A stretch of DNA of 64,000 bases from Acidiphilium sp. (GTDB lineage Bacteria; Pseudomonadota; Alphaproteobacteria; Acetobacterales; Acetobacteraceae): NCBI GenBank assembly GCA_027449105.1, contig DAIDMG010000001.1, forward strand, positions 1 to 64,000, read 5' to 3'. Below the pieces are notes generated by a model. The model ran no database searches. It was not told the origin of the DNA and was given only the letters and a program-made list of their open reading frames with translations. Both the position numbers and the translations under genes were made by a program. Position 1 is the stretch's first letter, and every line of letters starts with the position of its first letter. Below, piece after piece: positions 3,230-39,809 of this stretch.

Positions 3230-3243
3230 TTGACTCAGATCAA
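3230..3243. promoter_or_regulatory. Putative FNR/FixK/DNR-type binding site TTGACTCAGATCAA
   Basis: Matches TTGAY-N4-RTCAA; a CATAAT hexamer at 3266-3271 would put the site near -41.5 of a predicted start at about 3278. Confidence 0.45.
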
Positions 3244-3428: not shown

Positions 3429-3725
3429 ATGATGTGGGGTTACGGACCGGGTTATGGCTACGGCGGCGGGTGGCATGCATGGGGGCCAATGATGCTGTTC
3501 GGGGGATTTTTCGGCTTTGCCTTCCTGCTTTTGGTAATCGTGGCCGGGGCTTGGGCGATTCGCTCGATGGGGCGCGGACACCAGTGCTATCCTTCGGCAC
3601 AAGGTGTACCGCCCCAAACCGAGCGAACCTCGCGCGGTCTTGAAATCCTTGATGAACGTTACGCGCGTGGTGAGCTGGAGCGTGAAGAATATCTCCAGCG
3701 CAAGAAGGACCTTCTCGGGCCTTGA
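3429..3725 (+). CDS. SHOCT-domain small membrane protein
   Basis: Gly/Tyr/Trp-rich N-terminus, one TM helix, C-terminal RGLEILDERYARGELEREEYLQRKKDLL typical of SHOCT; AGGA upstream of ATG. Confidence 0.8.
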   Translation: MMWGYGPGYGYGGGWHAWGPMMLFGGFFGFAFLLLVIVAGAWAIRSMGRGHQCYPSAQGVPPQTERTSRGLEILDERYARGELEREEYLQRKKDLLGP

Positions 3726-31792: not shown

Positions 31793-31819
31793 GTGGCACT
31801 CTCTGGGTGAGAGTGCTAG
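31793..31819 (+). promoter_or_regulatory. CIRCE element (HrcA operator) upstream of groES
   Basis: GTGGCACTC-N9-GAGTGCTAG versus consensus TTAGCACTC-N9-GAGTGCTAA. Confidence 0.92.
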
Positions 31820-31896: not shown

Positions 31897-32211
31897 ATGA
31901 AATTCCGTCCTCTGCACGACCGTGTGGTGGTTCGTCGGCTGAATGCCGAAGAAAAAACCGCCGGCGGCATCATCATCCCCGACACTGCCAAAGAAAAGCC
32001 GATGGAAGGCGAAGTTATTGCTGTGGGCCCGGGCGCCCGCAATGAGCAGGGTCAGCTCGTGACGCTCGACGTCAAGGCTGGGGATCATATTCTTTTCGGA
32101 AAATGGTCCGGCACTGAAGTCAAAATTGACGGCGAAGAGCTGCTGATCATGAAAGAGTCCGACATCATGGGCATCATCGAGGGTAGTGCGGCCAAAAAGA
32201 AGGCCGCCTGA
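31897..32211 (+). CDS. groES: Co-chaperonin GroES
   Basis: [35 protein letters not shown]. Confidence 0.98.
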
Positions 32212-32243: not shown

Positions 32244-33899
<1,656 letters not shown>

Positions 33900-37464: not shown

Positions 37465-39090
37465 TTATACCCCGATCCCGGCTTCGGGGGACGCCGGCTC
37501 TGCTTTAGCCTCGGGAATCTCCGTCATCGTCGCTTCCGTCAGCAGCAAGGTGCTGGCAACCGACACGGCATTTTCGAGCGCTACGCGTACGACCTTGGTG
37601 GGATCAATGATGCCCGCCTCGAAGAGATCGACAAATTCCTTGCGGCCAGCGTCAAAGCCGTGGTTGCCGATGCCTTCCATCATGCGGGCGACGACCACTC
37701 CCCCGTCCGCAGCTGAGTTTTCGGCGATTTGGCGCGTTGGCGCCTCGAGCGCGCGCTTCAAGATCTGTACGCCGGTCCGTTCATCACCGTCACATTTGGC
37801 TTCTTCCTGTGCGACGGCCGCAATGCCACGTAACAGTGCGAGGCCACCACCCGGAACGATACCCTCGGAAACAGCCGCCTTGGTAGCGCTGATGGCATCG
37901 TCGAAAGCTTCCTTTTTGGATTTCATTTCGGCTTCTGATGGCGCTCCCACGCGAATGACGGCGACACCACCAGCCAGCTTTGCCAGCCGCTCCTGCAGTT
38001 TCTCCCGATCATAATCACTCGTGCTCTTGTCGATTTCGCGACGGATCTGCTCAACCCGTGCGCTGATTTGCGCGCGGTCGCCGGCACCGCCAATAATGGT
38101 TGTATTGTCCTTGTCGACGACAACCCGTCGTGCTCTCCCCAGCTGCGCTAACGTCGCATGATCAAGCTTGAGACCCAGGTCCTCCGAAATCACCTGGCCA
38201 CCCGTTAGCGTCGCGATATCCTGGAGCATCGCTTTCCGCCGATCGCCGAAACCTGGAGCGCGGACTGCGCAACTCTTGAGTACACCACGAATTTGGTTCA
38301 CGATGAGCGTAGCCAGCGCTTCGCCTTCGATATCCTCGGCCACGACGAGAAGTGGCTTTCCCGACTTTGCAATCTGTTCCAGCAAGGGGAGCGTGTCACT
38401 CAGCGCGCTGATCTTCCTGTCGCAAAGCAAGATGGTGCAATCCTCCATGACAGCTTCCATTGCTTCGGCATTGGTAATAAAATAGGGTGATTGAAAGCCG
38501 CGGTCAAATTGCATGCCTTCCACGACGTCGAGGACCGTTTCGGTTGTCTTGGATTCTTCGACCGTGATGACGCCTTCGTTGCCAACCTTGTCCATTGCAT
38601 CGGCTACCAGCTCGCCTATCACCGGGTCATTGTGTGCCGAGATTGCACCGACCTGGCTCTTTTCCTTTCGGGTTGCCACTGGTCGCGACAAGCCGTGCAA
38701 GGATTGAATGGCTGCCTTTGCGGCCCGATCGAGACCCCGCTTGATGTCTATCGCGCTCGCTCCAGCCACGACGTTGCGAACCCCGTCCGCAAAGATTGCG
38801 TGCGCAAGGATCGTCGATGTGCTCGTGCCGTCGCCCACCATGTCACCAGTTTTCTCGGCGGCTTGACGAAGCATGCGTGCGCCAAGATTCTCTTCGGGAT
38901 CCTTGAGATCGAATTCCTTGGCGATCGTGACTCCGTCGTTGCAAACGATGGGGACACCCCACTTTTTCTCGATCAGGACGGACTTGGATCGCGGTCCCAG
39001 GGTTACACGCACGGCATCGGCGAGTTGCGTCGCCCCTCGCAGTATTTTTTCACGGGCGGCGGAGCGGAAGAGAACCTGCTTGTGGGCCAT
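37465..39090 (-). CDS. groEL2: Second, divergent chaperonin GroEL without adjacent groES
   Basis: 541 aa; [32 protein letters not shown]-terminus ends [10 protein letters not shown] with no GGM tail. Confidence 0.97.
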
Positions 39091-39197
39091 GCAACCATTA
39101 CCTCTTGCGTCAGAGTTGCCGGGAACAGCCCGCGGGAAGTGTGAAAAACTCCCGAAACCTCCAGCGAATGTTGATAGCGACGGCGCTGAGAAATTCC

Positions 39198-39211
39198 TTG
39201 ATCTGGGTCAA
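39198..39211. promoter_or_regulatory. Putative FNR/FixK/DNR-type binding site TTGATCTGGGTCAA
   Basis: TTGAY-N4-RTCAA palindrome in the divergent groEL2/hsp20 intergenic region. Confidence 0.6.
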
Positions 39212-39272
39212 GGCAGTGTCGCCGCGCGTGGTTCAGTTTGGCAGCGCTCGCATTCTTGGAAGGAGGTTTGCT

Positions 39273-39809
39273 ATGCCTGAACCATCAAGAAAAGTTGCTG
39301 TTAAGGCGGGAAGCGGGGGCACGCCATCGGCGCCTCAACTCTGGCGGCCGTTCGACGCCCTCCGTCAAGAGATTGACCGGCTGTTCGATGATTTCGATGG
39401 CGGCTCGTGGCTAAGACCATGGCGGCGATCGCTTTTAAATGTCGAGCCATTTTGGCGGCGCGAGGCTGAGTGGTCTGCAGAACCGGCCGTCGACATCGTG
39501 GAAAAGGAGGCGGCGTACGAGATTACCGCGGAACTGCCAGGGTTCGATGAAAAGAACGTCGAAGTCAGTTTGGCTAACGGCGGTCTCGTGATCAAAGGCG
39601 AAAAATCCGCGGAGAAAGAGGAGAAGGAGAAGAACTATCACCTTCACGAGCGCCGCTTCGGCTCTTTCGAACGGTATTTCGGCCTCCCGGAAGGCACGGA
39701 CGCCGACAAGATCGAAGCAAGTTTCAAAAAAGGCGTCCTTACAGTGACGCTGCCGAAAAAGCCCGAGGCCCGAAAACCCGAAAAGAAAATCGCGATCAAG
39801 AGCTCTTGA
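39273..39809 (+). CDS. Hsp20/alpha-crystallin family small heat shock protein
   Basis: PAVDIVEKEAAYEITAELPGFDEKNVEVSLANGGLVIKGEKS, FKKGVLTVTLPK; AGGAGG at 39261; start corrected from 39105. Confidence 0.95.
   Translation: MPEPSRKVAVKAGSGGTPSAPQLWRPFDALRQEIDRLFDDFDGGSWLRPWRRSLLNVEPFWRREAEWSAEPAVDIVEKEAAYEITAELPGFDEKNVEVSLANGGLVIKGEKSAEKEEKEKNYHLHERRFGSFERYFGLPEGTDADKIEASFKKGVLTVTLPKKPEARKPEKKIAIKSS

Follow-up and report, generated by a model that had tools for sequence, protein, structure and literature searches.

FNR/FixK control of a solo groEL gene and of hsp20 genes is already known in kind from Bradyrhizobium and Rhizobium. In Bradyrhizobium diazoefficiens, expression at 0.5% O2 dropped 29-fold for groL5 (groEL5, blr4635) and 111-fold for hspC2 (blr4637) in a delta-fixK2 mutant; a FixK2 box is listed for each of these genes, and in vitro transcription served as validation for hspC2 (PMC9104804). 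In Rhizobium leguminosarum UPM791, the small heat-shock protein RLV_1399 showed an FnrN-dependent microaerobic induction of ~50-fold (1% O2), and its gene has an anaerobox at -87.5 (PMC11784457). The terms "chaperone," "hsp" and "heat shock" are absent from the main text of a reconstruction of the FnrN/FixK regulon in 50 alphaproteobacteria (PMC4999443). The clean association between an FNR/FixK box and a whole clade of solo GroELs, described below, was not found stated in the literature searched and may be new.

The window analyzed in this study, a 64,000-nucleotide stretch of DNA from Acidiphilium sp., contains a solo groEL gene (groEL2, 37465–39090, - strand) and, divergent from it, an hsp20 gene (39273–39809, + strand) encoding an alpha-crystallin small heat-shock protein of 178 amino acid residues (PF00011, 94 bits). 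The ATG of groEL2 (39090, - strand) and that of hsp20 (39273, + strand) are separated by an intergenic gap of 182 bp. The first-pass annotation had placed in this gap a palindrome fitting TTGAY-N4-RTCAA, and both its sequence and its coordinates were exact: the 14-bp box TTGATCTGGGTCAA occupies positions 39198–39211, has no strand of its own and lies upstream of both genes, its center (39204.5) being 114.5 bp from the ATG of groEL2 and 68.5 bp from that of hsp20. Similar to this locus, the FixK2 regulon of B. diazoefficiens includes a solo GroEL gene beside hsp20, each with a FixK2 box. In B. diazoefficiens, however, groEL and hsp20 are co-directional, have separate boxes and are activated through FixLJ-FixK2, whereas the window has a single box between divergent genes and its genome encodes FNR-type and FixK-like regulators. 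Similar to RLV_1399, hsp20 of the window is an hsp20 gene behind an anaerobox. Different from the window, RLV_1399 has two anaeroboxes, and a groEL partner in its promoter region is not described (PMC11784457).

Given its enrichment across the genome and its conservation upstream of orthologues, we consider it very likely that TTGATCTGGGTCAA is an FNR/FixK class II operator from which groEL2, and probably also hsp20, would be turned on under low oxygen. In the proposed mechanism, an FNR/FixK-family dimer would occupy the palindrome: at low oxygen, an O2-sensing FNR-type protein, a FixK-like relative, or both acting in a cascade would bind the box and, as a class II activator, bring in RNA polymerase. 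groEL2 would thereby be switched on, with its start predicted near 39163, and so, probably, would the divergent hsp20, whose start is predicted near 39246. The products would be an Hsp20 holdase and a solo GroEL whose GroES would need to come from the housekeeping operon; the two would make up a putative microoxic protein-quality module apart from the CIRCE/HrcA-controlled groESL. Binding, the oxygen response, action in both directions and the supply of GroES in trans are all predicted from DNA and protein sequences.

When groEL2 was compared with the GroELs of the window's own order, a discrete group matched at 70–84% and all others at no more than 58%, with nothing in between. The clade of groEL2 was sampled as 60 loci with a complete start, for which sequences were drawn from named genomes, plasmids, the class, the order and one rhizobial genus. 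In a tree of all 60 members and 30 sampled other GroELs, the clade was monophyletic with a support of 0.98. groES was found in the locus of none of the 60 clade members vs. 120 of 128 other GroELs, and the GGM tail was found in 0 of 60 vs. 111 of 129. groEL2 itself has no adjoining groES and no GGM tail and belongs to this monophyletic group, and is thus a member of the solo-GroEL clade. Moreover, hsp20 was in the fetched locus of 32 of the 60 clade members vs. 1 of 128 other GroELs. Within the window's own genus, the clade was absent from all four genomes sampled, which indicates a patchy distribution. In related genomes, two clade groELs are closely preceded by the published groL5 box, TTGCGCTAGGTCAA, and one of these two also has the published hspC2 box before its hsp20. 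Judged by these shared box sequences and not by the protein, groL5 (blr4635) appears to belong to the solo-GroEL clade.

A strict box was present within 300 bp upstream of 35 of the 60 clade groELs vs. none of 128 other GroELs (Fisher p ~4e-22, to be taken only as a guide since related loci are not independent). At 12 loci, hsp20 comes before groEL; here the box was upstream of hsp20 instead, strict in 9 and with at most one mismatch in all 12. The box was thus at the head of the transcription unit in 44 of 60 loci when strict matches were counted and in 53 of 60 with at most one mismatch, while 7 of 60 had no box in the regions searched even when one mismatch was allowed. The loci that conserve it, upstream of the solo groEL or of its hsp20 partner, come from diverse alphaproteobacteria. 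The box thus stays with the promoter when genes are rearranged, a pattern that chance cannot explain. Among the 60 loci, no other shares the divergent arrangement of groEL2 and hsp20 seen in the window, and the comparison therefore lends no support to action in both directions.

Class II FNR promoters have a 14-bp TTGAT-N4-ATCAA-type site ~41 bp upstream of the start and a -10 element ~22 bp downstream of the site. groEL2 shares this layout, although the starts in the window are predicted. The hexamer TATCAA (39171–39176, - strand), which the first-pass annotation had proposed as the -10 element of a start with the box near -41, begins 22 nt after the box and coincides with the -10 peak of the orthologues, and thus has the class II geometry. 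When 17 non-redundant orthologue promoters were aligned on the box, the -10-like score peaked 21–24 nt downstream (a peak reached by 0 of 2000 shuffles). The same -10-like peak was obtained with box-associated genes from the genome of the window itself. On the hsp20 strand, the annotation had recognized only a weak -10, which agrees with our finding of TTCAGT alone (39232–39237, + strand), starting 21 nt from the box; a ribosome-binding site of hsp20, AAGGAGG, was read from the sequence at 39260–39266 (+ strand). A scan for consensus sigma-70 promoters found none at the locus, which is uninformative here since promoters that depend on an activator seldom have a good -35 element.

The unequal -10 elements bear on whether both genes are served by the box. 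It is quite possible, though we would not favor it, that the box drives only one of them, groEL2 or hsp20, and that the other has a promoter of its own that went unrecognized. A good -10 (TATCAA) is found on the groEL2 side only, and in Bradyrhizobium loci in which groEL2 comes first, hsp20 has its own separate box. However, no other FNR/FixK box was found in the 182-bp gap, and the distance between the box and the ATG of hsp20 matches most homologous hsp20 promoters. In most of the latter, the box is ~62–78 bp from the ATG and is followed at 22–23 nt by TATTCT or TATGCT; in a minority, it is 113–157 bp from the ATG. With 68.5 bp, hsp20 of the window belongs to this larger group but has a poor -10. 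By this distance, control of hsp20 is as plausible as that of groEL2. Control in both directions is therefore plausible, with that of groEL2 better supported by its predicted -10.

The genome examined is a draft of 2.77 Mb in 388 contigs and is 88% complete. It encodes two clear FNR-family proteins, so the first-pass annotation did not fail for want of an FNR/FixK homolog, a finding by which it would have been refuted, and candidate cognate regulators for an FNR/FixK-activated promoter are at hand. Both have the E-x2-S-R recognition helix, and a strict box is found upstream of the gene of each. The regulator on contig C16 possesses cysteines C24, C27, C35, and C123 (CX2CX7C plus a central cysteine), that is, the three N-terminal cysteines and one central cysteine of an O2-sensing FNR. 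Its closest solved relatives are FNR-type regulators, and C24, C27, and C123 align with the [4Fe-4S] ligands of solved FNR proteins, while its third N-terminal cysteine is at X7 rather than X5 spacing. It scored 167 bits against the NCBIfam FnrL model, under the cut-off of 300 bits. The regulator on contig C9 is without Fe-S cysteines and is FixK-like, its best score being against FixK.

Strict boxes were also found upstream of cydA (cytochrome bd) and a cytochrome c gene. Further box-associated genes encode an ALA-synthase-like protein, a hydrogenase-like small subunit, a Rieske protein, a ribosome-hibernation-type protein, a PRPP synthase, a glycogen synthase, and a lactate permease. It is plausible that this gene set is an oxygen-limitation regulon; the gene calls around the 48 strict boxes of the genome were rough, and about ten products were checked against Pfam, with matches to partial sequences. 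DNR, NnrR, FNR, and FixK recognize near-identical sequences. For this reason, and with the second regulator being devoid of Fe-S cysteines, the box might be read by a DNR/NnrR-like protein of this superfamily that responds to NO or redox, with a trigger other than oxygen. We regard this as unlikely, as one regulator retains all four cysteines of the FNR cluster and the box-associated genes, among the about ten products checked, include those of oxygen-limitation type (cydA, ALA-synthase-like, cytochrome c).

The housekeeping chaperonin genes of the window are organized differently from groEL2. groES (31897–32211, + strand), the partner of GroEL1, is followed by groEL1 (32256–33899, + strand), which encodes the housekeeping GroEL with a GGM tail. 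Upstream of groES is a CIRCE-like element (31793–31819, + strand) with three mismatches to the consensus, which points to HrcA control of groESL. It was the only CIRCE-like match with at most three mismatches in the window, where 0.01 would be expected by chance. The first-pass annotation had noted that groEL2/hsp20, unlike groESL, are without CIRCE, and this proved correct. The 182-bp region gave no match to a CTTG.../CCCAT-type pattern of RpoH (sigma-32), although the pattern was only a rough one, and sigma-54 had no match at the locus. Heat-shock control of groEL2 and hsp20 by HrcA/CIRCE or RpoH, with the palindrome being incidental, would be in keeping with the membership of both in classical heat-shock families and with the HrcA gene present in the genome. 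Such control is very improbable, as neither CIRCE nor the rough RpoH pattern was found near the site and the box is conserved in a GroEL clade without groES; HrcA control in particular is unlikely since groESL accounts for the single CIRCE-like match of the window. The proposal of the first-pass annotation, that groEL2 and hsp20 respond to low oxygen, NO or redox rather than to HrcA, is thus well supported at the sequence level by the conserved box, the regulators found and the FixK2 and FnrN precedents.

Enrichment of the box was assessed by counting the pattern across the genome, with other spacings and the reversed pattern as controls. Strict TTGAYN4RTCAA occurred at 48 sites, compared with 3 sites for the reversed pattern and 40 in total for spacers of N5–N8, or ~10 per spacing. 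Precisely at the spacing of FNR sites, the strict motif is therefore enriched ~5-fold. Some 10 of these 48 strict sites are probably due to chance, and several of the 48 fall inside genes. The loose motif with at most two mismatches showed no enrichment in the window (26 matches, with 21.8 expected), and our claims accordingly rest on strict matches only. With ~10 chance strict sites expected genome-wide, a fortuitous palindrome could occur somewhere, but that this one is fortuitous is exceedingly improbable in view of a chance probability of ~7e-4 for a strict site in one given 182-bp region (from the wrong-spacing background) and of the conservation among orthologues.

Several GroELs of unclear use are common in alphaproteobacteria. 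The clean split reported here, with the loss of groES and the GGM tail in one clade and its gain of predicted low-oxygen control, offers a testable reason for a spare chaperonin, and it predicts microoxic control of groEL2/hsp20 in further lineages, including that of the window. We tentatively propose that these GroES-less chaperonins, patchy across the alphaproteobacteria, are a dedicated low-oxygen chaperonin that is wired to FNR/FixK, paired with Hsp20 and has kept its operator at the head of the transcription unit despite repeated rearrangements. Such a chaperonin may serve specific clients, for instance respiratory enzymes or hydrogenases that are produced under microoxia, instead of general heat stress.

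In rhizobia, the clade groEL is often plasmid-borne and near genes for universal stress proteins, ppsA, glucokinase, and host-attachment-type genes. On rhizobial and Bosea plasmids, the solo groEL was found in recurring islands with universal stress proteins, host-attachment-type proteins, ppsA, glucokinase, PRPP synthase, and hsp20, and these islands resemble the microoxic set of B. diazoefficiens. In the window's own genome, several strict boxes are clustered on contig C29 near the genes of an S30AE (ribosome-hibernation-type) protein and a PRPP synthase; this may be an island of the same type. On contig C4 of this genome, two strict boxes are in one intergenic region between divergent genes for a Lon-like protease, named by eye, and a lactate permease. 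A clade groEL was also found on a contig labeled Singulisphaera (Planctomycetota), which reflects either transfer or a misbinned MAG contig. Finally, the window contains a second strict FNR/FixK box, TTGACTCAGATCAA, at positions 3230–3243. This box is ~192 bp upstream of a gene for a small SHOCT-domain protein (about 3429–3725), which is possibly a second member of the regulon in the window.
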